Positions 15,606-28,306 of a stretch of 64,000 nucleotides of DNA are shown here, piece by piece. The position numbers and the translations under genes were made by a program. The stretch is taken from assembly GCF_004365965.1 (NCBI RefSeq), contig NZ_SOEB01000004.1, positions 62,001 to 126,000 of the forward strand, in the 5' to 3' direction. Within the stretch, counting starts at the first letter, position 1. Each line of letters starts with the position of its first letter. The notes under the pieces are model-generated. The model did not search any database. It worked only from the letters and a program-made list of their open reading frames with translations, and had not been told where the DNA came from. This DNA comes from Rhodovulum visakhapatnamense. GTDB lineage: Bacteria; Pseudomonadota; Alphaproteobacteria; Rhodobacterales; Rhodobacteraceae.

Positions 15606-16892
15606 ATGCAGAACGACCACCGATCCCATGGCCTGTGGGAAGAGACCGCGCCCGCGCTGGCAGTGGCGGACACGCCCCCGCTGACAAGTCCCGCCGAGGC
15701 CGATGCCGTCATCGTCGGCGCGGGCTATACCGGGCTGTCGGCCGCGCTGCATCTGGCCGAGGCCGGACGGCGGATCGTGGTGCTTGAGGCGGCCGAGGTC
15801 GGCTTTGGTGCCTCGGGCCGGAATGTCGGGCTGGTCAATGCCGGGATGTGGACCCTTCCCGACCAGATGCCGAAGGCGCTGGGTCCCCTCTACGGACCCC
15901 GGCTGCTGGAGCTTCTGGGCTCGGCCCCGGCCGAGGTCTTTGCCCTGATCGCGCGCCACGGGATCGCCTGCGAGGCGGTGCGGAACGGCACGCTTCACTG
16001 CGGGGTCGGTGCTGCCGGGCTGGCCGAGCTGACCGAGCGCGCCCGGCAATGGCGCGCGCGCGGCGCCCCCGTCGAGCTGCTGGATGCCGCCGAGGCGCAC
16101 CGCCGGATCGGCGGCGGGTCCTATGCCGGGGCGCTGTGGGACCGGCGCGCGGGCACCCTGCAGCCGCTGGCCTATGCGCGCGGGCTTGCCCGGGCCGCGA
16201 TGGCCGCGGGCGCCACGATCCATGCCCGGAGCCCCGTGACCGGGATTGCCCGCGAGGGCGCCGACTGGGTGGCCCGGACCCCGACCGGGCAGGTTCGCGC
16301 GAAATGGCTGGTGCTGGCGACCGACGCCTATACCCGGCAGGTCGCGACCGGGTTGCGCCGCGAACAGATCCGCCTGCCCTATTTCAACATGGCGACGCCG
16401 CCCTTGCCGCCCGATATCCGCGCCACGATCCTGCCGGGCGGCGAGGGCTGCTGGGATACCAGACGGGTGCTGTCCTCGTTCCGGCTCGATGCCGACGGAC
16501 GGCTGGTCTTCGGGTCGGTCGGGCAGCTGGCCGCGCCCGATTTCGCCGTCCATCGCGACTGGGCCCTGCGCGCCATGCACCGGATCTTTCCGCAGCTGAG
16601 GGGCATCGGCTTTGCAACGCACTGGTTCGGCTGGATCGGCATGACCGGCGATCACCTGCCGCGCCTGCACCTGCCGGGCGAAAACGCCCTCGCCATAGCG
16701 GGTTATAACGGCCGGGGCATCGCGCCCGGCACCGTCTTCGGCAAGGCCATCGCGGCCCATGTCGCGGGCGATCTGCCGCTTGAGGCGATGCCGCTGCCGG
16801 TCTCGAGGATCGCGCCCGCGCCGCTGCGCCGGGGGCGGGAGCTTTTCTTCCGCGCCGGGGCGGTGGCCACACATCTTGTCTCCGACCGCTGA
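15606..16892 (+). CDS. FAD-dependent oxidoreductase, L-pipecolate oxidase-like (AmaA type)
   Basis: A 428-residue DAO-family flavoprotein with the FAD motif VIVGAGYTGLSAALHLAEAG (about residues 34-53), the GASGRNVGLVNAG segment and the C-terminal GYNGRGIAPGTVFG. An ATG exists further upstream (15516), but the one at 15606 gives the family's usual short N-terminus. It is a distant paralogue of the oxidase at 3.9-5.2 kb. Together with the ALDH7-type dehydrogenase two genes later it resembles the amaA-amaB pair of Pseudomonas, where AmaA oxidises L-pipecolate to piperideine-6-carboxylate. Substrate by context only. Confidence 0.8.
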   Translation: MQNDHRSHGLWEETAPALAVADTPPLTSPAEADAVIVGAGYTGLSAALHLAEAGRRIVVLEAAEVGFGASGRNVGLVNAGMWTLPDQMPKALGPLYGPRLLELLGSAPAEVFALIARHGIACEAVRNGTLHCGVGAAGLAELTERARQWRARGAPVELLDAAEAHRRIGGGSYAGALWDRRAGTLQPLAYARGLARAAMAAGATIHARSPVTGIAREGADWVARTPTGQVRAKWLVLATDAYTRQVATGLRREQIRLPYFNMATPPLPPDIRATILPGGEGCWDTRRVLSSFRLDADGRLVFGSVGQLAAPDFAVHRDWALRAMHRIFPQLRGIGFATHWFGWIGMTGDHLPRLHLPGENALAIAGYNGRGIAPGTVFGKAIAAHVAGDLPLEAMPLPVSRIAPAPLRRGRELFFRAGAVATHLVSDR

Positions 16893-16904
16893 CGGAACCC
16901 GACC

Positions 16905-18326
16905 ATGCCAAGCCTGCACCTGACCCGTCCGGTCCCGCCCGAAATCCTGTCCCGTGCCGCGGGCGGCCTGTCGATCCTCATGCTGTCGGCACTGATCGCG
17001 GGGACGCTTGCCACCGGGCGGCTGGCGGGCGCCGGGGCGGTTCTCGATATCGCGGCCGTCGCGGCGGTGGCGCTGGCGCTGTTGCGGCTCGACCGGGTGT
17101 CGCGGATCGCGCGGATATTCCTTGGCGCCGCCGCGCTGTCGGTCGCGCTGGTGGCCGCGACGCTGCCCGAGGCGATGCCCGCGATGCGGCAGGCGCTGAT
17201 GCAGGGCACGGCCTTTTCGGCCTTCCTGACGGCGCTGGGGCTGATCCGGGCGCCGGTGCGCGGCTCGAAGGCCATCGCCCGGGCGGCCGAAGCGCTGTTC
17301 GCCCATACCGCCCGGGTGCGGATCGTCGCGGTCAGCCTCGGCGCGCAGGCGATTTCGGTTCTGTTCAACATCGGCACCATCGGCATGATCTCGGATATCG
17401 CCGCCGATCACGATGCCCGCCGCGCGACCGAGGGGCGGCGGCGGATCGACACCGGGGCGATGACGCTGGCCGCGCTGCGCGGCACGCTGATGATGACGGT
17501 CTGGTCACCGATCGGGCTCGGCTTTGCCATCGTCACCAGCGCGATCCCCACGCTCGACCCGGTGCTTTTCCTGGCGCTGGCCCTGGCCGCGGCCCTGACC
17601 ATCGCGGTCGTCACGGCCCTTCTCGACGCGCGGAAGGCCCCCGCGCCGTCCGGGCAGGCGGCCGAGGCCGCGCCGCCGGGCTCGGCCGGGGCGCTGGTGG
17701 CGGTGCTGGCCGCCGTGGCCGGGCTTGTCGCGGTGACGATCCTTCTGCACCGGCTGCTGGACATCAGCTTCCTCATTGCCGCCTGCATCGTACTGCCGCT
17801 CCTGGCCGTGATCTGGCCCCGGATCGAGCGCGGCCTGCCCCGGTCCGGGGGCAGCGCGCTGGTCCGGGTCTCGGCCGCCTCCGAGGGCATGGCGACCGAA
17901 AGCACCATCTTCCTTGCCGCCGCCGTGATCGGGGCGGCCGTCGCCCAGGCGGCGCAGGCGATGGGCATCGACGCGCTGATCGAGCGCGGGTCCCTGCCGC
18001 CGCTTGCGGTGATCCTCGCCTGTCTGCTGGCGATCCCGGCCGCGGGCGCGCTGATGATCCCGCATTCCATCGTCATGGTGATGGCCGCGCAGCTGTTCGG
18101 CGCCAGCCCGGTCGGCGCCCAGCACCCCTATGCGCTGGGGCTGGCGCTGTGCCTGGCCTGGGCGCTGGCGATCTCGGCCTCGCCGATCTCGGCCATGTCG
18201 ATCATCACCGGTCGGCAATTGCACCGCCCGCCCCATCATGTGAGTTTCAGGGTCAACCGGGGCTTCACGCTGATCGCCATGACACTGGCCGTGGCGATGA
18301 CAGCCCTCGTCTATGTCGTCGAATAG
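16905..18326 (+). CDS. Multi-pass membrane protein, probable transporter of unknown family
   Basis: The 473-residue protein is almost entirely hydrophobic, with about 10-12 membrane segments. Recognisable stretches are FNIGTIGMISDIAADH near residue 150, LRGTLMMTVWSPIGLGFAIVTSA near 190, a charged cytoplasmic-looking stretch rich in Ala/Pro near 245, and ISASPISAMSIITGRQLHRPPH near the end. Paired hairpin-like Asn/Gly/Ser-Pro motifs in two halves recall ion-transporter superfamily carriers, but I do not recognise the family. It lies between the pipecolate-oxidase-like and ALDH7 genes, so it may import or export their substrate. Confidence 0.75.
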   Translation: MPSLHLTRPVPPEILSRAAGGLSILMLSALIAGTLATGRLAGAGAVLDIAAVAAVALALLRLDRVSRIARIFLGAAALSVALVAATLPEAMPAMRQALMQGTAFSAFLTALGLIRAPVRGSKAIARAAEALFAHTARVRIVAVSLGAQAISVLFNIGTIGMISDIAADHDARRATEGRRRIDTGAMTLAALRGTLMMTVWSPIGLGFAIVTSAIPTLDPVLFLALALAAALTIAVVTALLDARKAPAPSGQAAEAAPPGSAGALVAVLAAVAGLVAVTILLHRLLDISFLIAACIVLPLLAVIWPRIERGLPRSGGSALVRVSAASEGMATESTIFLAAAVIGAAVAQAAQAMGIDALIERGSLPPLAVILACLLAIPAAGALMIPHSIVMVMAAQLFGASPVGAQHPYALGLALCLAWALAISASPISAMSIITGRQLHRPPHHVSFRVNRGFTLIAMTLAVAMTALVYVVE

Positions 18327-18372
18327 GCCGCTCCCGGCACTCCCGGGCCGCGCCCAACAGGAAGGATCGCAG

Positions 18373-19881
18373 ATGACCCTCAGGACCGACACCGAAGCCC
18401 TTCTGGCAACTCTCGGCGTCGACCGCAGCGCCTTTACCGGCGGCGGCATGGCCAGCTTCTCGCCCATCACCGGCGAAGAGATCGCCGATGTCGCGCCTGC
18501 CACCGCCGAAGAGGCCGCCGCCGCCATCGCCCGCGCCAGCGCGGCCTTCCGGGTCTGGCGCATGGTTCCCGCGCCGAAGCGGGGCGAGCTGATCCGGCTG
18601 TTCGGCGAAGAGCTGCGCGCGGCCAAGGCCGAACTTGGTCGGCTGGTGTCGATCGAGGCCGGCAAGAGCCCCTCGGAAGGCGCGGGCGAGGTGCAGGAGA
18701 TGATCGACATCTGCGACTTCGCGGTGGGTCTGTCGCGCCAGCTTTACGGGCTGACCATCGCGACCGAGCGTCCCGGCCACCGGATGATGGAAACCTGGCA
18801 CCCTCTGGGGGTCGTCGGCGTGATCTCGGCCTTCAATTTTCCCGTCGCGGTCTGGTCCTGGAACACGGCGCTGGCGCTGGTCTGCGGCGATCCGGTGATC
18901 TGGAAACCCTCGGAAAAGACCCCGCTGACGGCATTGGCCTCGATGGCAGTGCTGGCCCGCGCGCTCAAGCGGTTCGGCGAGGCGCCCGAGGGGCTGGTGC
19001 AGGTGCTGATCGGTGGCGCCGAGGTCGGCGCGGCGCTGGTCGACAGCCCCGATGTGGCGCTGGTCTCGGCCACCGGCTCGACCCGGATGGGGCGGATCGT
19101 CGGGCCGAAGGTGGCGGCGCGCTTCGGCCGTGCGATCCTGGAGCTTGGCGGCAACAACGCGGGCATCGTCTGCCCTTCGGCCGATCTCGACATGGCGCTG
19201 CGGGCCGTGGCCTTCGGGGCTATGGGCACGGCCGGGCAACGCTGCACCACCCTGCGCCGGCTTTTCGTGCATGAGGATGTTTATGACACGCTCGTACCCG
19301 GGCTGATCCGGGCCTATGACTCGGTCACCGTCGGCAACCCGCTGGAAAGCTCGGCCCTGGTCGGGCCGCTGATCGACGGCGCCGCCTATCGGGCGATGCA
19401 GGCCGCGCTGGCCGCGGCCCGCGCGGCGGGCGGAACCGTTCATGGCGGCGAGCGCGTGGCCATCGGCCCCGACACCGCCTTCTACGCCCGCCCCGCGCTG
19501 GTCGAGATGCCCGAGCAGACCGGCCCGGTTCTGGAGGAAACCTTCGCGCCCATCCTCTACGTGATGAAATACAGCGACTTCGACGCGGCGATCGAGGCGC
19601 ATAACGCGGTCGGCGCGGGGCTGTCGTCTTCGGTCTTCACCACCGACCTGCGCGAGATGGAGCTGTTCCTGTCGGCCCGCGGGTCCGATTGCGGCATCGC
19701 CAACGTGAATATCGGCACCTCGGGCGCCGAGATCGGCGGGGCCTTCGGTGGCGAGAAGGAAACCGGCGGCGGGCGCGAAAGCGGCTCGGATGCCTGGAAA
19801 GGCTACATGCGCCGCGCCACCAACACCATCAACTATTCGCGCGATCTGCCGCTGGCCCAAGGCGTCGTCTTCGACATCTGA
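18373..19881 (+). CDS. Aldehyde dehydrogenase, ALDH7 / aminoadipate-semialdehyde type (AmaB-like)
   Basis: A 502-residue NAD-dependent aldehyde dehydrogenase. The catalytic residues are Glu257 (ELGGN) and Cys291 (GQRCTT). GQRCTTLRRLF, FNFPVAVWSWNTALAL and the C-terminal GGAFGGEKETGGGRESGSD are characteristic of the ALDH7 (antiquitin) group, which oxidises alpha-aminoadipate semialdehyde in lysine/pipecolate breakdown. In Pseudomonas this enzyme (AmaB) acts directly after pipecolate oxidase. The ATG at 18373 gives the normal N-terminus. It is the last gene of the plus-strand run and converges on the RpiR regulator with only 6 bases between. Confidence 0.9.
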   Translation: MTLRTDTEALLATLGVDRSAFTGGGMASFSPITGEEIADVAPATAEEAAAAIARASAAFRVWRMVPAPKRGELIRLFGEELRAAKAELGRLVSIEAGKSPSEGAGEVQEMIDICDFAVGLSRQLYGLTIATERPGHRMMETWHPLGVVGVISAFNFPVAVWSWNTALALVCGDPVIWKPSEKTPLTALASMAVLARALKRFGEAPEGLVQVLIGGAEVGAALVDSPDVALVSATGSTRMGRIVGPKVAARFGRAILELGGNNAGIVCPSADLDMALRAVAFGAMGTAGQRCTTLRRLFVHEDVYDTLVPGLIRAYDSVTVGNPLESSALVGPLIDGAAYRAMQAALAAARAAGGTVHGGERVAIGPDTAFYARPALVEMPEQTGPVLEETFAPILYVMKYSDFDAAIEAHNAVGAGLSSSVFTTDLREMELFLSARGSDCGIANVNIGTSGAEIGGAFGGEKETGGGRESGSDAWKGYMRRATNTINYSRDLPLAQGVVFDI

Positions 19882-19887
19882 GGCGGT

Positions 19888-20787
19888 TCAGGAGGCAGGG
19901 TCGGACAGCTCCAGTTCGTCGAGATCCTCGCGCAGGGTCTCGACCGCGTTCAGGTGCAGAAGGCCCGCCTCGCCCAGCGCGGCGGCGCACTCCGTCGCCA
20001 GAAGCCGCATCAGCGCCAGAGCCCCGGCATAGGAATCGCGCGGCGTGCGGGTTTCCACCGCGCAGGTGAAGGTCCAGGCGGCATGGGCCGGGGCGCCGCG
20101 CAGGCTGGCATCGCAGACCAGCAGCACCCGCGCGCCGCGCGCGGCCACCGCCTGCACCAGCCGCGAGAACCGCGCCGGGCGCCGCCTGAGCCCGACGATC
20201 ACCGCCACATCCTCGGGGCCGAGCCCGGCGACGCCCTCGGCCGCGGTCTGTCCATCCAGCAGAAGCGGCGCGACATCGGGCCGGATCTGGGCCAGCTGGG
20301 CGGTCAGGTAGTCGGCCAGAAACCGGCTGTTGCGAAATCCCATGACCCGCACCCGCCGCGCCCGCCCCAGAGCCCCCGCCGCATCGCGCAGCACGCCCGG
20401 ATCGACCCGCGCCAGCGTCGCCTCGATCAGGTCGGCCTCGGCCCGGATCAGCCGGGCGAAGGGCCGCCCCTCCTGCCCCGGCTCGGCCTCTTCGGTCATG
20501 AACAGCGGCGAGCCGGTCTCGCGCAGCTTGCGGGCATCGAGCCGGGCGCTTTCGAAATTGCGATAGCCCAGCCGCTGCACGATCCGGCTGACCGTGGCGT
20601 TCGAGACGCCCGCCTGCGCCGCCAGTTCCGAGGCGCTCCAGACCGCCATTTCATGGGGCGCCGACAGGATCGCATCGGCCACCTTGCGCTCGCCGCCCGG
20701 CAGGCCGTCATAGGCGCGGTGGATCCGCTTGAGCAGCGATCCGGCCAGCTCGGCCCCGTCCTCGGTCTGTGCGCCCGGCTTGGTCAT
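19888..20787 (-). CDS. MurR/RpiR-family transcriptional regulator
   Basis: A 299-residue regulator with an N-terminal HTH_6 domain (AQAGVSNATVSRIVQRLGYRN near residues 55-75) and a C-terminal SIS domain (VRVMGFRNSRFLADYLTAQLA; VAVIVGLRRRPARFSRLVQ). The family usually binds phosphosugars, but many members near amino-acid or purine catabolic genes sense other ligands. It is divergent from the polyamine-type transporter operon across a 255-bp region with two AT-rich palindromes, so local control is likely. Confidence 0.93.
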   Translation of the reverse strand: MTKPGAQTEDGAELAGSLLKRIHRAYDGLPGGERKVADAILSAPHEMAVWSASELAAQAGVSNATVSRIVQRLGYRNFESARLDARKLRETGSPLFMTEEAEPGQEGRPFARLIRAEADLIEATLARVDPGVLRDAAGALGRARRVRVMGFRNSRFLADYLTAQLAQIRPDVAPLLLDGQTAAEGVAGLGPEDVAVIVGLRRRPARFSRLVQAVAARGARVLLVCDASLRGAPAHAAWTFTCAVETRTPRDSYAGALALMRLLATECAAALGEAGLLHLNAVETLREDLDELELSDPAS

Positions 20788-20937
20788 GGCCTATCGTTTT
20801 CACAGATCCGACTCTGGCGCAAATCGGTTTTCATGTCCCGCGCGCTGGTCCTGTTCGGACGGTCCGAGGGACATACTGTGCCTGATTTCAAGGCATATCC
20901 GGGCGCGATGCGCCCACCCGTGCAGCAAATCCGATAT

Positions 20938-20951
20938 GAAAATATTCTTTC
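20938..20951. promoter_or_regulatory. Candidate RpiR operator, upstream half-site
   Basis: An AT-rich imperfect palindrome with GAAA / TTTC ends, centred 31 bases (three helical turns) from the better palindrome at 20969. Both lie between the divergent regulator and transporter genes. Confidence 0.35.
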
Positions 20952-20968
20952 TTCATTTTTGCTTTTAC

Positions 20969-20982
20969 GAAAATTTATTTTC
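20969..20982. promoter_or_regulatory. Candidate RpiR operator GAAAATTTATTTTC
   Basis: GAAAAT and ATTTTC form perfect 6-bp arms around TT. RpiR-family proteins often bind such GAAA...TTTC palindromes. The site sits 61 bases before the binding-protein start codon in the most AT-rich stretch nearby, so it could overlap the promoter. Confidence 0.45.
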
Positions 20983-21042
20983 CCATCCAGTCTGGCGCCA
21001 GGACGGCCTGCCCCTTCCCGTTCCGCTACGAAAGGACACCGC

Positions 21043-22110
21043 ATGAACCGCAGAGACCTTCTGAAGACTGCCCTGGCCGGGACGGCGCTCGGCGCCTTCG
21101 GACCCGCTTTCCGGGCCGATGCCGCCACCGGCATCCTGTGGATGACCTGGGAGAACCTGGCCAAGGACGACTACCTTGCCCCGTTCCTCGCCGCCAACGA
21201 CATCGCCCTGACCAAGACCTTCATCGGCACCGATGACGAACAATTCGCCAAGCTGCGCGCCGGCGGCGCCGATTCCGTCGACCTGATCACGCCCGGGCTC
21301 GACAAGGTGGAATACTACACCGCCTCGGACCTGCTGCAGCCCATCGACTTTGCCAGGGTGCCGAACGCCGCCAAGCTGTACGACACCTTCAAGCAGACCC
21401 CGCTGGGCAAGGTCGACGGGCAGACCTACGGCATCCCGTTCTACTGGGGCATCAACCCCATCGTCTACCGCGCCGACCTGATGGAAGCCGAACCAGACTG
21501 GTCGGTCTTCTTCGAGGGCGACGCGTATAACGGCAAGCTGGCCATGCGCGACTATGCGCTGGAAGGCATCATGATCGCCGCGATGTATCTGGGCATCCCC
21601 GAATCCGAGATGTTCACCATGGACGACCGCCAGCTGGCCGAGGTGAAGAAGGTTCTGAAGATCCAGAAATCGAAGCTGCGCACCTACTGGAACTCGATCG
21701 GCGACCTGACCAACCTCTTTGCCACCGGCGAGGTGGTCTGCGCCTTCTCCTGGGTGCCGCCCTATTACGAGCTTCGCGCCAAGGGCATCGACATGGGCAT
21801 GGCCAAGCCCAAACAGGGCGTCATCGGCTGGTGCGATACCATCGCGGTGCCGAAGGGCGTCGAGGGCGCCCGGCTCGACGCGGCCTTCGCGCTGGTCGAC
21901 TACCTGCTGGGCCCCGATTACGGCAAGATGCTGGCGGTGGGCGGGCCCTATGCGCAATCGACCTCGGCCGCGCGGGATCATCTGACCGAGGAGCAGCAGG
22001 ACAAGATCTTCATCAAGGACCTCTCGGTGATGGACAGCTTCGTCTGGAAGCAGAACCCGCCCCGCTATGGCGACTGGGTCGCGCTCTGGAACGAAGTGAA
22101 GGCCAGCTGA
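21043..22110 (+). CDS. Polyamine-type ABC transporter substrate-binding protein (PotD-like), Tat-exported
   Basis: The 355-residue protein has a canonical twin-arginine signal (NRRDLLKTALAGTALGAFGP) and then the PotD-like fold: WMTWENLAKDDYLAPFLAAND, FAKLRAGGADSVDLITPG, a YGIPFYWGINPIVYRADL segment and the C-terminal FVWKQNPPRYGDWVALWNEV. The family binds putrescine, spermidine or related cationic compounds, but many members bind other organic nitrogen molecules. It opens an operon of three transporter genes and three catabolic hydrolase/lyase genes. Confidence 0.92.
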   Translation: MNRRDLLKTALAGTALGAFGPAFRADAATGILWMTWENLAKDDYLAPFLAANDIALTKTFIGTDDEQFAKLRAGGADSVDLITPGLDKVEYYTASDLLQPIDFARVPNAAKLYDTFKQTPLGKVDGQTYGIPFYWGINPIVYRADLMEAEPDWSVFFEGDAYNGKLAMRDYALEGIMIAAMYLGIPESEMFTMDDRQLAEVKKVLKIQKSKLRTYWNSIGDLTNLFATGEVVCAFSWVPPYYELRAKGIDMGMAKPKQGVIGWCDTIAVPKGVEGARLDAAFALVDYLLGPDYGKMLAVGGPYAQSTSAARDHLTEEQQDKIFIKDLSVMDSFVWKQNPPRYGDWVALWNEVKAS

Positions 22111-22112
22111 GA

Positions 22113-23195
22113 ATGGCTGTCGCCGAAAACACCGCAGCCGGGCGCCGGACGCGCCCGCTGCTGGAGGCCATCGCGCTTTACAAGTCCTACGGGTCCGTTC
22201 AGGCGGTGCGGGGGATCGACCTTGCGCTGGCGCATGAAAGCTATGTGACCCTGCTGGGCCCCTCGGGCTGCGGCAAGACCACTCTCCTGCGCATGGTCGG
22301 CGGCTTCGAAGCCATCGGTTCGGGCACCCTGATGCTGGACGGAGCGCGGCTTGACGACCTGCCCGCGAACTTGCGGCCGATCAACACCGTCTTTCAAAGC
22401 TACGCGCTGTTCCCGCATCTGACGGTGCTGGAAAACGTGGCCTTCGGGCTCAGCTACCGGTCCCTGCCGAAAGACCGGATCAAGGCCCGCGCCCGCGAGG
22501 CGCTGGCGACCGTCCGGATGGAGGCCATGGCCGACCGCCGACCGCGCCAGCTGTCAGGCGGCCAGCAACAGCGCGTGGCGCTGGCCCGCGCCATCGCCAA
22601 CGAACCGCGCCTTCTGTTGCTGGACGAGCCGCTGTCCGCGCTCGACCGCCGGATGCGCAAGGACATGCAGATCGAGCTGAAGGACCTGCAACGGCGGCTG
22701 GGCATGACCTTCCTGCATGTGACCCACGACCAGGAAGAGGCCTTTGCGCTGTCGGACCGGATCGTCGTGATGCGCGATGGCCGGATCGAACAGCAGGGCG
22801 CGCCGGGCGACATCTATGCCCGCCCCGCCACCGCCTATGTGGCCGATTTCATCGGTGGCGCCTCGTGCCTGCCGGGGCGCATCCTCGGTCAGGTCGGCAA
22901 GAGCTATGCCATCGAGACCGCACTGGGCCGCCATGTCGTGCCCGGGGTGAGCGGGCTGAGCGTGGGGGCGCGCGCGGTGCTGTGTCTTCGATCCGAGAAG
23001 GTGGCGCTGGGGGAAACCGGCACGCCTGCCCATGTGACACACGCGGTCTATCGCGGCGCCGACTGGCTTCTCGAATGCGTGGCGGGCGGGCAGATCTTTC
23101 AGGTTACCCATGTCGGGCCGCCCCCCGCCCCGGGCGAGACGGTGCGGCTGTCCTTCGACCCCGACCGGGTCTGGATCGCGCGGGAGGCCGCCTGA
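22113..23195 (+). CDS. Polyamine-type ABC transporter ATPase (PotA-like)
   Basis: A 360-residue ATPase starting 2 bases after the binding-protein stop. It has Walker A GPSGCGKT, the Q-loop in TVFQSYALFPHLTV, signature LSGGQQQRVALARA, Walker B LLLLDEPLSALD and the switch His in VTHDQEEA. A C-terminal TOBE region (residues about 275-355) follows, as in PotA/MalK-type ATPases. It overlaps the next permease gene by one base. Confidence 0.94.
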   Translation: MAVAENTAAGRRTRPLLEAIALYKSYGSVQAVRGIDLALAHESYVTLLGPSGCGKTTLLRMVGGFEAIGSGTLMLDGARLDDLPANLRPINTVFQSYALFPHLTVLENVAFGLSYRSLPKDRIKARAREALATVRMEAMADRRPRQLSGGQQQRVALARAIANEPRLLLLDEPLSALDRRMRKDMQIELKDLQRRLGMTFLHVTHDQEEAFALSDRIVVMRDGRIEQQGAPGDIYARPATAYVADFIGGASCLPGRILGQVGKSYAIETALGRHVVPGVSGLSVGARAVLCLRSEKVALGETGTPAHVTHAVYRGADWLLECVAGGQIFQVTHVGPPPAPGETVRLSFDPDRVWIAREAA

Positions 23196-24052
23196 TGCGC
23201 CCGCAATCCGCCGGAACCTGGCTGGCCCTGCCCGTGGTCGCGGCGCTGGGCGCGCTTTGCCTCGCGCCGCTTGCGATCCTCTTTGCCTATTCCTTCTTCT
23301 CGGTCGATTTCGTCACCATCTCGCATGACCCGAGCCTGAAGAACTACGCCCGCATCCTTCAGTCCGAGACCTATCGCGGGCTGATCGCCCGGGCCTTCGG
23401 ATCGGGGCTGCTGGTCGCCGCGATCACCGCCGTGATCGGCTATCCCGTCGCCTGGTTCCTGGCCAAGCGGGCGGGCGCGGCCAAGACCATGCTGCTGACG
23501 CTGCTGCTGGTGCCGCTTTATTCCGGAGACCTTCTGCGCATCTTCGCCTGGCGGGTGCTGCTGGGGGCCGAGGGCGCGATCAACCGCAGCCTGATCTGGC
23601 TTGGCGCCATCGACGCGCCGTTGCAGGGGCTGCTGTTCAGCCCGCTCGCCACCCATATCGCGCTGACCTACAATTACCTGCCCTTCATGGTGATCGGACT
23701 GTGGCTGGCCTTCGAAAGCCTCGACGACGCCTGGCTGGAGGCCGCGGCCGATCTGGGCGCCCCCGGACGGGACCGGTTCCGCCGGGTGACGCTGCCCCTG
23801 ACCGCGCCCGGGCTGATCGCGGGCGGGCTGATGGTCTTCGTGATGGTGGTGGGCGACTATCTGACGCCGCAGCTTCTGGGCGGGGCCTCGGGCGTGACCG
23901 TCATCTCGGCCATCAACGACCTGTTCGGCACCGCCTTCGACTGGCCGCTGGGCTCGGCCATCGCCTGGACGATGCTGGCGATCCTGATGCTGTGCTTCGG
24001 CGCGGGCGCGGTCCTGATCCGGCGGTCGAGCCTCGTTGCGGAGGGCGCCTGA
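23195..24052 (+). CDS. Polyamine-type ABC transporter permease (PotB-like)
   Basis: A 285-residue membrane protein with six predicted helices and the EAA loop LEAAADLGAPGRDRFRRVTLP. It starts inside the ATPase stop codon (TGATG) and ends directly before the second permease. It should form the channel heterodimer with the next product. Confidence 0.93.
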   Translation: MRPQSAGTWLALPVVAALGALCLAPLAILFAYSFFSVDFVTISHDPSLKNYARILQSETYRGLIARAFGSGLLVAAITAVIGYPVAWFLAKRAGAAKTMLLTLLLVPLYSGDLLRIFAWRVLLGAEGAINRSLIWLGAIDAPLQGLLFSPLATHIALTYNYLPFMVIGLWLAFESLDDAWLEAAADLGAPGRDRFRRVTLPLTAPGLIAGGLMVFVMVVGDYLTPQLLGGASGVTVISAINDLFGTAFDWPLGSAIAWTMLAILMLCFGAGAVLIRRSSLVAEGA

Positions 24053-24826
24053 ATGTCCCGTCTCGGTACGCTCTGGGTCTGCCTCGTCTTCGGCTTCATG
24101 TATCTGCCGATCGCCATGATCGCGCTGTTCTCGGTCAATACCTCGGACGTCATGGCCTTTCCGCTGACCGGCGTCACCGGCCAATGGTTCGCCGAGATCC
24201 TCGGCGACGGCCGGCTTGGCGGCGGGTTTCTGACCACGCTGGCGGTGGCCTTTCCGGTGGCGCTTCTGACCACGCTCCTTGGGGCCGCCGCGGCGCTGGC
24301 GCTGAGCTTCTACGCCACCCGCTTCCGGGTGCTGTTCGCGGCGCTTCTGCTGCTGCCCTTCCTGGTGCCGCGGCTGATCCTTGCCGTGGCGCAACTGATC
24401 CTTTTCAAGGAACTGGGCGTGTCGCGGTCGCTGCTGACGGTGATCGCGGGGCAGTCGGTCATCATCCTGCCCTTCACCACGGTCATCGTCGCCTCGGTCC
24501 TGATCCGCATCGACCGCCGACTGATCGAGGCCGCCGCCGATCTGGGCGCCTCGGGCTGGTCCAGCTTTCGCCGCGTGGTGCTGCCGCTGATGGGCAACGG
24601 GCTGATGGCCGCCTGGGTGATCGCCTTCGTGCTGTCCTCGTCGGAATACGTCCTGACCGCCTTCCTTTCGGGCCGCCAGCAAGCCCTGTCGGTGCTGGTC
24701 GCGTCGGATTTCCGCTTCGACCTTTCCCCCAGCCTCAACGCGCTCGCCGTGCTGATCGTGCTGGGCAACATCGCCCTCGTGGTGATCGCCGAGGCGATCC
24801 GCCACCGCTCGGGGCGGCTCAACTGA
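24053..24826 (+). CDS. Polyamine-type ABC transporter permease (PotC-like)
   Basis: A 257-residue inner-membrane permease with the EAA loop IEAAADLGASGWSSFRRVVLP in its last third and a first helix LWVCLVFGFMYLPIAMIALF. The start codon follows the PotB-like stop with no gap. Length and motifs fit PotC. Confidence 0.93.
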   Translation: MSRLGTLWVCLVFGFMYLPIAMIALFSVNTSDVMAFPLTGVTGQWFAEILGDGRLGGGFLTTLAVAFPVALLTTLLGAAAALALSFYATRFRVLFAALLLLPFLVPRLILAVAQLILFKELGVSRSLLTVIAGQSVIILPFTTVIVASVLIRIDRRLIEAAADLGASGWSSFRRVVLPLMGNGLMAAWVIAFVLSSSEYVLTAFLSGRQQALSVLVASDFRFDLSPSLNALAVLIVLGNIALVVIAEAIRHRSGRLN

Positions 24827-24828
24827 CC

Positions 24829-26082
24829 ATGCAGGGGACCATGACCCAGACGCTTTCCTTCACCAACACCCTGGGCCAGGGCGCCCGGACCGAAATCGTT
24901 TCGAACCCGCATTGCGCGCCCGGCTACGGTCCCGCGCAGGAGGTCGTGCTGAACGACACCGCCTTCGCCCGCGCCCGCGCCACCATCGCCGCCTGGCCCG
25001 GCTATGCGCCGACCCCGCTGCTGAGCCTGCCCGGGCTTGCGGCCGAGGCCGGGATCGCAGGACTTTACTACAAGGACGAGGCCGGGCGCTTCGGGCTGGG
25101 CAGCTTCAAGGCGCTGGGCGGGGCCTATGCGGTGCTGCGGCTTCTGTCGCGCGAGATCGCGGCCCGCGAGGGCATCGCCGAGCCCACGGCCAAGGCAATC
25201 CTGGCGGGCGATCATGCCGCAACCGTCGCCGCCATCACCGTCTGCTGCGCGACCGACGGCAATCACGGCCGGTCGGTCGCCTGGGGCGCGCGCACCTTCG
25301 GCTGCCGCTGCGCGATCTTCATCCACGCGACCGTGTCCGAGGGCCGCAAGGCCGCCATCGAGGCTTATGGCGCCGAGGTCCGCCGCTGTGCCGGAAATTA
25401 CGACGACAGCGTCCGCGAGGCGCAGGAGACCGCCACCCGCGAGGGCTGGTTCGTGGTCTCCGACACCTCCTATCCGGGCTATACCGAGGTTCCGAAGGAC
25501 GTGATGCAGGGCTATGAACTGATGGCGGCCGAGGCCGCCGACCAGCTTGACGCGCCCCCCACCCATATCTTTGTGCAAACGGGCGTCGGCGGCGTCGCGG
25601 CGGCAGCAGCGGCCCATTTCCGCCGCCGCCATGGCGCGGCCGCGCCGAAGGTGATCCTGGCCGATCCCGAGGCCTCCGCCTGCTGGATCGAGACGATCCG
25701 CGCAGGAACGCCCACCGCCGTCACCGGCGATCTCAACACGCTGATGGCCGGGCTTGCCTGCGGCGAGGTCTCGCTTCTGGCTTGGGACGTGCTGAAACCG
25801 CTGGCTTTCGCCGCGGTCTCGGTCGCGGACGCGGATGCGGTGGCGATGATGCGGCGGCTCGCGCATCCGTTGCCGGGCGATCCGGCCATTGTCGCGGGCG
25901 AATCCGCCGTTGCGGGGCTGGTCGCGCTGATGGCGGCCGCGGCGCCCCCCGAGGCCGCGGCGGCGCTGGGTCTGGGGCCGGACTCGCGGGTTCTGGTCTT
26001 CGGGACCGAGGGCGACACCGACCCCGCGCTTTACGAGAAACTGGCCGGTCGCCCGGCCGCCGAGGTGAGGGCCGAGGCATGA
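24829..26082 (+). CDS. Diaminopropionate ammonia-lyase
   Basis: The enzyme (DpaL / YgeX) splits 2,3-diaminopropionate into pyruvate and two ammonia, using PLP. The 417-residue product shows the family layout: YYKDEAGRFGLGSFKALGGAYAV with the PLP lysine, CCATDGNHGRSVAWGARTFG, SEGRKAAIEAYGAEVRR, a SDTSYPGYTEVPKDVMQGY segment and the phosphate-loop QTGVGGVAAAAAAHF. A second ATG at 24841 has an AGGGG close before it and may be the true start. It follows the permease by 2 bases and overlaps the next gene by 4, so it belongs to the transporter operon. Confidence 0.93.
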   Translation: MQGTMTQTLSFTNTLGQGARTEIVSNPHCAPGYGPAQEVVLNDTAFARARATIAAWPGYAPTPLLSLPGLAAEAGIAGLYYKDEAGRFGLGSFKALGGAYAVLRLLSREIAAREGIAEPTAKAILAGDHAATVAAITVCCATDGNHGRSVAWGARTFGCRCAIFIHATVSEGRKAAIEAYGAEVRRCAGNYDDSVREAQETATREGWFVVSDTSYPGYTEVPKDVMQGYELMAAEAADQLDAPPTHIFVQTGVGGVAAAAAAHFRRRHGAAAPKVILADPEASACWIETIRAGTPTAVTGDLNTLMAGLACGEVSLLAWDVLKPLAFAAVSVADADAVAMMRRLAHPLPGDPAIVAGESAVAGLVALMAAAAPPEAAAALGLGPDSRVLVFGTEGDTDPALYEKLAGRPAAEVRAEA

Positions 26083-27335
26083 CAGCGGACCTGACGATAA
26101 ATCTCGACCGGCTGATGAGCCGGATCGCCGAGCTGGGCCGGATCGGCGCCCTGCCCGGCGGCGGCTGCAAGCGGCTGGCGCTGAGCGCCGAGGATGCCGA
26201 GGGCCGCGCGCTGGTCACCGGCTGGTTCCGCGCGGCGGGGCTAGAGGTCCGTACCGACGTGATCGGCAATTGCTGGGCGATCCGGCCGGGGCGGTCGGGC
26301 GGCGCGCCGGTGGTGATGGGCTCGCATATCGACACGGTCGCGACCGGCGGGCTCTATGACGGGGTGCTGGGCGTGCTGGGCGGGCTCGAGGTCATCGAAA
26401 GCGCGATCGAGGCCGGAACAGAGACTGAAAAGCCCCTTGCCGTGGCCTTCTTCACCAATGAGGAAGGCGCCCGCTTCGCCCCCGACATGATGGGATCAGG
26501 CGTGGCGCAGGGCGGGCTCGACCTGGACGAGATGCTGGCCAAGGTCGGTATCGACGGGGTGAGCGTGGCCGAGGCGCTGGCCGCCATCGGCGCGGCCGGG
26601 CCCGACCCGGTGGGCGCGCTGGCACCCGATACCTATCTGGAGCTGCATATCGAGCAGGGCCCGGTGCTGGAGGCCGAAGGGCTCGACATCGGCGTCGTGA
26701 CCGGGGTGCAGGGGATTTCCTGGACCGAGATCACGATCGAGGGGCAGGCCGCCCATGCGGGCACGACGCCCATGGCGCTGCGCCACGACGCGGGGCTTGT
26801 GGCGGCGCGGATCGCGACCGAGGCCCGCGCCATCGCCGACGCGTTCGGCCCGCCGCAGGTCGCGACCGTGGGCCGGATCGCGCTGACGCCCGATCTGGTC
26901 AACGTCATCCCCGAACGCGCCGTGCTGACCGTCGATCTGCGCAACACCGACGAGGCCCGGCTGCAGGCGGCCGAGGCCCGGCTTTTCGAGCGCGCCGAGG
27001 CCTTCGCCGCCGCCGGGGGCTGCCGGCTATCGCGCCGGACGCTGGCCCGGTTCGAACCGGTGGCCTTCGACGCAACGCTGGTCGACGCGGTCGAGGCGGA
27101 GGCCCAGGCGCTGGGGCTGACGCACCGGCGCATGCCCTCGGGGGCGGGCCATGACGCGCAGATGTTCGCGCCGCGCTGCCCCTCGGCGATGATCTTCGTG
27201 CCCTCGCAGGACGGCATCAGCCACAACATCCGCGAATTCACCGCGCCCGGACAGATCGCGCCGGGCGTGCGCCTGCTGGCGCAGGTGGCGCTGGCCCGCG
27301 CGGGCCGGATCGACCAGAAAGGACAGACCGAATGA
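26079..27335 (+). CDS. Zn-dependent N-carbamoyl-L-amino-acid hydrolase / allantoate amidohydrolase family
   Basis: A 418-residue M20C-type enzyme. Metal and substrate motifs are present: GSHIDTVATGGLYDGVLGV, TNEEGARFAPDMMGS, the EQGPVLEAEG segment, GQAAHAGTTPM (dimer-lid His) and GAGHDAQ near the end. Family members remove carbamoyl groups from N-carbamoyl-L-amino acids, beta-ureidopropionate or allantoate. It overlaps both neighbours by 4 bases, between diaminopropionate ammonia-lyase and a second, unrelated carbamoylase, so a ureido substrate is strongly suggested. Exact specificity is not visible. Confidence 0.9.
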   Translation: MTADLTINLDRLMSRIAELGRIGALPGGGCKRLALSAEDAEGRALVTGWFRAAGLEVRTDVIGNCWAIRPGRSGGAPVVMGSHIDTVATGGLYDGVLGVLGGLEVIESAIEAGTETEKPLAVAFFTNEEGARFAPDMMGSGVAQGGLDLDEMLAKVGIDGVSVAEALAAIGAAGPDPVGALAPDTYLELHIEQGPVLEAEGLDIGVVTGVQGISWTEITIEGQAAHAGTTPMALRHDAGLVAARIATEARAIADAFGPPQVATVGRIALTPDLVNVIPERAVLTVDLRNTDEARLQAAEARLFERAEAFAAAGGCRLSRRTLARFEPVAFDATLVDAVEAEAQALGLTHRRMPSGAGHDAQMFAPRCPSAMIFVPSQDGISHNIREFTAPGQIAPGVRLLAQVALARAGRIDQKGQTE

Positions 27336-28306
27336 GCCGCAAGATCGTCGCCGCCGCCGCCCAGCTGGGCCCCATCGCCCGGACCGAGCCGCGCAGCTCG
27401 GCCGTCGCGCGCATGCTGGCGCTGATGGAAGAGGCCCACCGGCGCGGCGCCCGCCTTGTCGTCTTTCCCGAACTGGCGCTGACCAGCTTCTTTCCGCGCT
27501 GGCTGATCGAGGACGAGGCCGCGCTCGATGCCTTTTACGAAACCGAGATGCCGAACGCCGACACCCAGCCGCTGTTCGACGCGGCGGCGCGGCTGGGCAT
27601 GGGCTTTTATCTGGGCTTCGCCGAACTGCTGACCGAGGGCGGTCTCAAGCGGCGCTTCAATGCCTCGATCCTCGTCGATCCCGAGGGCCGGATCGCGGGC
27701 CGCTACCGCAAGGTTCACCTGCCGGGGCATTACCATCCCGAGGACTGGCGCCGCTTCCAGCATCTGGAAAAGCGCTATTTCGAACATGGCGATCTGGGCT
27801 TTCCGGTCTACGACTTCATGGGCGGCAAGGCCGGCATGTGCCTGTGCAACGACCGCCGCTGGCCCGAGACCTTCCGGGTGCTGGCGCTGCGGGGCGCCGA
27901 ACTGGTCATGCTGGGCTACAACACCCCGCAACACTATCCGCAGGCGCCCGAACACGACCATCTGCAGGATTTCCACAACCATCTCAGCCTGCAGGCGGGC
28001 GCCTATGCCAATGGCTGCTGGGTGATCGGCACCGCCAAGGCCGGGCTCGAGGAGGGCTGCGAGCTGATCGGCGGCAGCTGCATCGTCGCCCCCACCGGCG
28101 AGATCGTGGCAATGGCGCAGACCCGTGGCGACGAGGTGGTGACCGCCGAAATCGACCTCGACCGCTGCAGCGAGCTGCGCAAGAACATCTTCAACTTCGC
28201 GCTGCACCGCGAGCCCGGCGATTACGGCCCGATCTGCGAGGGTGCCGAGGCCCGGGCGGCCGAACGCGACGCGATCACGACAGCCAGCCGGTTCGCGCGC
28301 GACTGA
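27332..28306 (+). CDS. N-carbamoyl-D-amino-acid hydrolase (nitrilase superfamily)
   Basis: The 324-residue product is closely colinear with the Agrobacterium D-carbamoylase over its whole length. The catalytic triad falls at the same numbers: Glu47 (VVFPELALTSFFPRW), Lys127 (RKVHLPG) and Cys172 (CLCNDRRWPETFR). NTPQHYPQAPEHDHL and EEGCELIGGSCIVAPTGEI also match. The enzyme cleaves the ureido group of N-carbamoyl-D-amino acids to the free amine, CO2 and ammonia. It is the last gene of the operon. No hydantoinase is adjacent, which sets it apart from ordinary hydantoin-utilisation clusters. Confidence 0.92.
   Translation: MSRKIVAAAAQLGPIARTEPRSSAVARMLALMEEAHRRGARLVVFPELALTSFFPRWLIEDEAALDAFYETEMPNADTQPLFDAAARLGMGFYLGFAELLTEGGLKRRFNASILVDPEGRIAGRYRKVHLPGHYHPEDWRRFQHLEKRYFEHGDLGFPVYDFMGGKAGMCLCNDRRWPETFRVLALRGAELVMLGYNTPQHYPQAPEHDHLQDFHNHLSLQAGAYANGCWVIGTAKAGLEEGCELIGGSCIVAPTGEIVAMAQTRGDEVVTAEIDLDRCSELRKNIFNFALHREPGDYGPICEGAEARAAERDAITTASRFARD

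Follow-up and report, generated by a model that had tools for sequence, protein, structure and literature searches.

What compound would be broken down by an operon that joins an importer to 2,3-diaminopropionate ammonia-lyase (DAPL) and to two hydrolases of ureido groups? The question is raised by positions 19888-28306 of a 64,000-nucleotide stretch of the Rhodovulum visakhapatnamense genome (contig NZ_SOEB01000004.1; the whole stretch is hereafter the window, and the genome the host genome). An original prediction, made from the letters alone, had described, at this locus, an RpiR regulator diverging from a compact operon of importer, lyase and two hydrolase genes, and gene calls and family scans agree with that layout. 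Seven plus-strand genes occupy 21043-28306, joined in order by a 2-base gap, a 1-base overlap, direct abutment, a second 2-base gap and two 4-base overlaps. The entire operon is also present in Rhodovulum kholense, the closest named record found, whose DAPL is 95% identical.

Judging from gene content and family membership, there is roughly an even chance that the operon would serve to break D-2,3-diaminopropionate carrying N-carbamoyl groups, most probably in the form of (R)-2,3-diureidopropionate (DUPA), down to pyruvate. A route of this kind had been suggested in the original prediction. Its three enzymes do form a conserved unit and 2,3-diureidopropionate is a published intermediate, while its further step, from a missing hydantoinase to the import of ureido acids, is not supported.

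Recurrence of the lyase and its hydrolases

Contigs representing one genome per species yielded 302 DAPL relatives, and the neighbourhoods of the best 80 were surveyed; a D-carbamoylase was counted if it lay no more than 4 kb away on the same strand, and an M20C amidohydrolase if it lay within 3 kb. A D-carbamoylase lies near DAPL in 63 of the 80 loci and an M20C gene in 35, of which 33 also have the D-carbamoylase; the other two are L024, where the contig ends within M20C, and L086. Additional neighbours include a TRAP (tripartite ATP-independent periplasmic) importer (40 loci), an RpiR regulator (40), a Pot-like importer (nine), a YgeY-like gene (two) and a hydantoinase (one). Going by record titles, Rhodobacteraceae account for most of these loci, the remainder being other Alphaproteobacteria plus a few Granulosicoccus.

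The association was also approached in the reverse direction, using samples not chosen by DAPL, namely 121 genomes of the order and 385 of the class. Within the order, a D-carbamoylase was found at E<=1e-60 in 11 genomes and stands beside DAPL in five of them, while M20C, found at E<=1e-110 in seven genomes, adjoins DAPL in all seven (the host genome is included in both counts). Within the class, 67 of 385 genomes have a D-carbamoylase at E<=1e-60. Neighbourhoods were examined for the best 70 of 99 further class places and for seven of 12 order places; five of these D-carbamoylases duplicated loci already named, and among the 72 unique ones, ten stand beside DAPL and 14 beside a hydantoinase. 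Finally, the set RpiR-DAPL-M20C-D-carbamoylase occurs on five plasmids, those of Rhizobium sp. ACO-34A, R. daejeonense, Cupriavidus oxalaticus, C. necator N-1 and Cupriavidus sp. KK10. A genome search for the three-enzyme neighbourhood, as the original prediction had proposed, reveals a conserved unit (hereafter, the module) in Alpha- and Betaproteobacteria.

A D-carbamoylase clade linked to DAPL

A FastTree phylogeny of 135 D-carbamoylase rows (134 unique sequences plus that of the window) places the window enzyme in a 70-row clade with a support of 100. Sixty-six of these rows are DAPL-linked, four have neither partner and none is linked to a hydantoinase alone; hydantoinase-linked D-carbamoylases fall outside the clade. 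Since 62 of the 70 rows had entered through the choice of DAPL, the fairer count is that of rows from unselected genome samples, where eight of 12 clade members other than that of the host genome are DAPL-linked, versus seven of 65 rows outside the clade. Within this clade, then, a hydantoinase is not the usual companion of the D-carbamoylase, contrary to the possibility, raised with the original prediction, that the hydrolases usually accompany hydantoinases and meet DAPL only here. Ten residues are special to the DAPL-linked clade, among them W139, H201, Y202, H208, D209, Q212, E281 and N285.

A predicted operator common to module versions

The pattern ATGAAA-N6-TTTCAT was discovered and counted on the same 31 intergenic regions that separate RpiR from the adjacent gene, with 200 first-order Markov resamplings as background. 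It occurs with at most one mismatch in 19 of the 31 regions (resampled mean 0.04) and with at most two in 27 (mean 0.6, maximum 4). Pairs of sites exactly 31 bases apart, with at most three mismatches each, are found in 22 regions, against a resampled maximum of 1 for any spacing; the spacing is 30 in the Rhizobium and Cupriavidus loci and in L028. Good sites are also present at all eight module loci outside the 31-region set (L013, L014, L028 and L202-L206), and no good site was found at L079, at L187 or at the two hydantoinase loci of the host genome. RpiR is predicted to act at this double operator, within the divergent promoter region.

The predicted operator is common to the TRAP-type and Pot-type versions of the module, and in Rhizobium it precedes both a Pot-hydantoinase operon and DAPL. 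A single operator type before both versions would suggest that they share an inducer and a substrate family. Since the module recurs in both Alpha- and Betaproteobacteria, with an importer of either the TRAP or the Pot-like kind and a single type of operator, a chance assembly of genes with no common pathway is barely credible, and no point was found in its favour. Four further one-mismatch sites in the host genome are taken as chance; by eye, none lies beside a hydantoinase- or DAPL-looking gene. A one-mismatch operator-like site at L211:1501-1518 (G000:C14:27695-27712) covers the start of a gene that looks by eye like a sodium/alanine symporter, and is probably due to chance.

Table 1. Genes and predicted operator sites of the locus, in window positions
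Feature	Position	Strand	Basis
RpiR-family transcriptional regulator (HTH_6 + SIS), divergent from the operon	19888-20787	-	PF01418 51 bits, PF01380 30 bits
Predicted operator site 1	20936-20953	.	One mismatch to ATGAAA-N6-TTTCAT; best-scoring place of the whole window
Predicted operator site 2	20967-20984	.	Three mismatches; 31 bases from site 1
PotD-like periplasmic binding protein	21043-22110	+	PF13416 92 bits; Tat-signal match weak, under cut-off
PotA-like ATP-binding cassette (ABC) ATPase with TOBE domain	22113-23195	+	PF00005, PF08402
PotB-like ABC permease	23195-24052	+	PF00528
PotC-like ABC permease	24053-24826	+	PF00528
2,3-Diaminopropionate ammonia-lyase (DAPL), pyridoxal-phosphate (PLP) enzyme	24829-26082	+	PRK08206 474 bits (cut-off 276)
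M20C amidohydrolase	26079-27335	+	TIGR01879 409 (cut-off 204)
D-carbamoylase, carbon-nitrogen hydrolase	27332-28306	+	PF00795; PDB 2ggk 442 bits

Enzymes of the operon

In addition to PRK08206, DAPL exceeds the cut-off of TIGR01747 (282 versus 274) and falls under that of the stricter model TIGR03528 (317 versus 532). It has a relative in the PDB, 4d9g (1e-64), and its K94, D143 and D212 align with K77, D120 and D189 of the E. coli enzyme, which we take to be the catalytic residues; all three are kept. The shortfall against TIGR03528 would suit an unlikely alternative in which the lyase is not one for diaminopropionate, and the module makes pyruvate from some other N-carbamoyl-D-amino acid whose beta position bears a leaving group (N-carbamoyl-D-serine, for instance). 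The D-carbamoylase family accepts a broad range of N-carbamoyl-D-amino acids, and DAPL enzymes show some activity on D-serine. More distant DAPL/D-carbamoylase pairs beside Dpp-type ABC genes also favor this alternative, as do a gene of L129 resembling 3-hydroxy-D-aspartate aldolase (190 bits, cut-off 690) and one of L140 resembling DgaE (167 bits, cut-off 600). It is opposed by the scores over PRK08206 and TIGR01747, by the retained catalytic residues and by the company of YgeY, which joins the unit in four loci and whose plasmid homologues are in every case no more than 4 kb from a DAPL gene.

The best PDB match of the D-carbamoylase is an N-carbamoyl-D-amino-acid amidohydrolase (2ggk). E47, K127 and C172, the triad named in the original prediction, are all in place; K127 and C172 presumably complete the triad with E47. 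These three residues, together with R175, R176 and H129, are found in all 135 aligned rows, H215 in 134 and H144 in 122, and the window enzyme has every one of them. In the part of PMC3546935 available, E47 is listed with the substrate residues H129, H144, R175, R176 and H215, and activity on beta-ureido acids is described for none of the characterised D-carbamoylases aligned there.

For M20C, the best PDB match is an N-carbamoyl-beta-alanine amidohydrolase (8c46, 341 bits), and entries named N-carbamoyl-L-amino-acid hydrolase match as well. H83, D94, E128, E129, H190 and H382 are invariant in 19 aligned rows, the window included, and we assume metal-binding or catalytic roles for them. A subtype was also sought from sequence: PRK09290.1-3 is narrowly missed (447 versus 452) and the general PRK09290.1-5 passed (409 versus 399), from which no specificity follows.

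The proposed pathway

The relevant chemistry has been described for the reductive urate pathway by Li et al. 2025 (PMC12507026, here and below as far as its text was available). In that account, 2,3-diureidopropionate is an intermediate that loses both of its ureido groups before DAPL (YgeX) completes the route. E. coli HyuA opens 5-(ureidomethyl)hydantoin (UMH) toward DUPA, the 2-ureido group is taken by YgeW or by UacY, a D-aminoacylase homologue of C. difficile, and the 3-ureido group is taken by YgeY; YgeX then yields pyruvate, and the E. coli enzyme is said to be equally active on D and L forms. Percudani (PMC12990295) notes a proposed R (D) configuration of the ureido intermediates and describes both the configuration and the order of removal as still open.

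By analogy, the Pot-like importer of R. visakhapatnamense would take up a ureido compound, or else UMH, which could be opened by a D-hydantoinase encoded elsewhere in the host genome. The D-carbamoylase would hydrolyse the alpha (2-) ureido group of the D-isomer and M20C the beta (3-) ureido group, together giving D-2,3-diaminopropionate, two CO2 and two NH3, and DAPL would turn the diaminopropionate into pyruvate and two more NH3. These assignments follow the enzyme families: the D-carbamoylase would fit an R 2-ureido acid, and M20C, whose nearest PDB relative is an N-carbamoyl-beta-alanine amidohydrolase, the 3-ureido group.

Hydantoinases and genes of urate reduction

No hydantoinase match above 70 bits is present in the window, so the carbamoylase has no hydantoinase adjacent to it as in hydantoin-utilisation (hyu) clusters. 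It was from this absence that an input of imported ureido acids had been deduced, a deduction weakened by Rhizobium operons that include a D-hydantoinase and by two such genes elsewhere in the host genome. Specifically, two Rhizobium relatives have a divergent PotD-A-B-C-hydantoinase operon with a similar Pot-like importer and the same predicted operator. A D-hydantoinase over the PRK13404 cut-off accompanies the module in L011, L202 and L203, being located in the divergent operon in the latter two. Both host homologues exceed the TIGR02033 D-hydantoinase cut-off and lie on other contigs. The first, under the PRK13404 cut-off, belongs to a pyrimidine-type (dihydropyrimidinase) cluster with its own M20C, 44% identical to that of the operon; the second, on contig C23, is over the PRK13404 cut-off and is 65% identical to the Rhizobium module hydantoinase. 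Given these two homologues, a hydantoin input is possible in R. visakhapatnamense as well.

The dihydropyrimidinase cluster bears on a pyrimidine-like route, which we consider very unlikely, whereby 5-amino- or 5-ureido-dihydrouracil is opened to albizziin-type acids, M20C then gives diaminopropionate and the D-carbamoylase has a side role. The resemblance between the two host M20C enzymes is in keeping with it, as is the ability of E. coli HyuA to open 5UDU (taken as 5-ureidodihydrouracil), the second UMH-like compound tested in PMC12507026. However, the dihydropyrimidinase contig brings an M20C of its own, no DAPL is visible on it by eye, and across the 80 loci the D-carbamoylase is kept more widely than M20C (63 versus 35).

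A YgeY-family gene, passing PRK13004 and missing TIGR03526, is found in L010, L011, L204 and L206. For example, the Antarcticimicrobium module (L010) adds YgeY, and that of Pseudodonghicola (L011) adds both YgeY and a D-hydantoinase and lies near a gene of the Asp/Glu/hydantoin racemase family. The C. oxalaticus and C. necator modules add a major facilitator superfamily (MFS)-like gene and a YgeY-family gene (PRK13004 393 and 392 versus 321; TIGR03526 missed). YgeY-like genes are rare, with four in 72,556 plasmid records at 1e-60, in each case with DAPL no more than 4 kb away; two reside in Cetobacterium clusters ordered dpaL, YgeY, D-aminoacylase, ssnA. In E. coli, ygeX adjoins ygeY, just as the original prediction stated. 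At 1e-40, none of the 121 order genomes, that of the host included, has a YgeY-like gene (a search with no positive in its sample), and nothing in the host genome exceeds the TIGR03526 (YgeY) cut-off. YgfK, SsnA and XdhD are likewise under cut-off in the host genome, in searches that each found one of 14 control genomes over cut-off and did not extend to UacX and the F420 variant; YgfK is over cut-off in none of the 385 sampled genomes of the class.

The importer

All four importer genes miss the curated Pot equivalog models of NCBIfam (PotA 371<482, PotB 174<348, PotC 138<326, PotD 70<582), so the label "Pot-like" is silent on the ligand; polyamine import was dropped as a candidate for the same reason. 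The PotD-like protein is 86-89% identical to five Pot-type relatives in other genera, 77% identical to that of L021 and 48% to that of L079. Its pocket residues were inspected in an alignment, from which no ligand claim was drawn. Similarly, PDB neighbours of the TRAP binding protein comprise many DctP relatives with diverse names, and no ligand was inferred from them.

Weighing the substrate assignment

Several points count against the assignment of the operon to DUPA. A commoner DAPL of Rhodobacterales (L189-L201, L187-L188), about 50% identical, has other neighbours, often an M20 amidohydrolase-like gene; DAPL homologues of the order thus also keep quite different partners, so that DAPL alone is no proof of a ureido substrate, and the enzyme may be the last step of several deacylation routes. 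The importer ligand cannot be read from sequence. As far as tested, urate reduction within the same cell is not the source of DUPA, because YgfK, SsnA and XdhD are under cut-off. M20C is not nearby in 30 of the 63 D-carbamoylase loci, and the D-carbamoylase is missing from 17 of the 80 DAPL loci. Both hydrolase families are promiscuous. M20C, D-carbamoylase and YgeY stand together in four relatives, giving three candidate decarbamoylases for two ureido groups, so that M20C may there be an L-specific 2-ureido hydrolase. The published order of removal is itself disputed: according to PMC12990295, another group (Liu et al.) assigns the 3-ureido group to YgeW and places its removal first.

A possible, if rather doubtful, alternative is that the two hydrolases are complementary in stereochemistry rather than in position. 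Under this alternative, M20C would act on the L form and the D-carbamoylase on the D form of a single 2-ureido substrate (3-amino-2-ureidopropionate or 5-aminomethylhydantoin), DAPL would finish both, and YgeY would remove the 3-ureido group where one is present. The co-occurrence of all three hydrolases in L010, L011, L204 and L206, the loci with a D-carbamoylase and no M20C nearby, and the matches of M20C to N-carbamoyl-L-amino-acid hydrolases are all in line with it, as is the reported acceptance of both isomers by E. coli DAPL (PMC12507026). On the other side, M20C finds its closest PDB match in a beta-ureido hydrolase, and both DUPA and albizziin, through their 3-ureido groups, are beta-ureido acids. 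Furthermore, YgeY-like genes occur in only two of the 80 module loci, so this alternative would mostly require a substrate with no 3-ureido group.

Comparison with known systems and significance

The closest known system is the diureidopropionate arm of the reductive uric acid pathway (E. coli ygeW-ygeX-ygeY-hyuA and the C. difficile UacY variant; PMC12507026), with which the module shares DAPL as the last enzyme, ureido removal before it, an M20-superfamily hydrolase and, in some versions, a D-hydantoinase or YgeY-family gene. It differs in having a D-carbamoylase of the nitrilase superfamily in place of YgeW or UacY, M20C instead of or beside YgeY, and an ABC or TRAP importer with RpiR, as well as in the lack of SsnA, YgfK and XdhD over cut-off in the host genome. 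In hyu clusters, the same D-carbamoylase family with the known residues is found, and three relatives of the module have a hydantoinase, one with a racemase-family gene nearby, whereas the module D-carbamoylase forms a separate clade with DAPL as its partner. The reductive pyrimidine (Pyd) cluster likewise has an M20C of the carbamoylase branch, and such a cluster lies on another host contig (genes named partly by eye), but its M20C is a 44% identical paralogue with other partners. The importer has the gene content and order of a PotD-type ABC importer such as the polyamine importer PotABCD, yet its four subunits are under the Pot cut-offs and, at the 80 DAPL loci, TRAP importers outnumber Pot-like ones by 40 to nine.

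One possible setting, offered tentatively, is that the module would be an aerobic environmental counterpart of the lower urate-reduction pathway, with which proteobacteria of sea, sediment, soil and sewage would scavenge UMH or (R)-DUPA from anaerobic urate reducers, the D-carbamoylase clade having evolved for that job. If true, this would suggest a flow of carbon and nitrogen from anaerobic urate reducers to aerobic bacteria, and would provide a natural substrate for the D-hydantoinase/D-carbamoylase pair. The module also touches on two questions that the urate pathway leaves open, namely how the ureido intermediates are configured and which of their ureido groups is first to go; the scavenging scenario, if true, would lend backing to the D configuration and to a D-specific enzyme as the one that removes the 2-ureido group, both undecided in PMC12990295. 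The clade tied to DAPL offers a concrete, testable natural substrate, and a possible natural role, for a family known mainly from industry. The pathway arm itself has been known since 2025; the organisms and enzyme set presented here were not found described together in the open-access literature, where no paper linking diaminopropionate ammonia-lyase with a carbamoylase was found in a search that mostly leaves out subscription papers.

Neighbouring genes and variant loci

Beside the module, window positions 15606-19881 encode a flavin adenine dinucleotide (FAD) oxidoreductase (DAO), a 473-aa protein with no Pfam or NCBIfam match and an L-piperidine-6-carboxylate dehydrogenase (806 versus a cut-off of 730 bits); this gene content suggests a separate lysine/pipecolate route.

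Among loci with the commoner DAPL (L189-L201, L187-L188), several also have an ectoine-hydrolase-like M24 peptidase or a maleate-isomerase-like protein (neighbours named by eye), and L187 and L188 combine DAPL, M20C and another M20-like gene with no D-carbamoylase. A urease operon adjoins DAPL and D-carbamoylase in two genomes of one family group (L093:5365-7074 and L094:12067-13740; urease alpha identified by NCBIfam in the former and by eye in the latter). In L079, a cytidine/deoxycytidylate deaminase-family gene (PF00383, 9486-9974) is first in a DAPL/D-carbamoylase operon, beside the 48% identical PotD relative. A ureidoglycolate-lyase family gene (PF04115, L139:6472-6948) lies directly 5' of DAPL-M20C-D-carbamoylase, with an Asp/Glu racemase family gene downstream, and nucleoside-hydrolase-like and adenine-deaminase-like genes (L019:4984-7634) lie 5' of a truncated PotC and DAPL-M20C-D-carbamoylase. 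The distant DAPL/D-carbamoylase pairs beside Dpp-type ABC genes (L129, L140) possibly represent a second substrate class; L129 has an adjacent PRK09237 amidohydrolase, and L140 a similar-looking one (by eye) together with the DgaE-like PLP enzyme. Finally, a short frame after DAPL at L047:11304-11558 resembles, by eye, the end of a D-carbamoylase, perhaps marking decay of the module.

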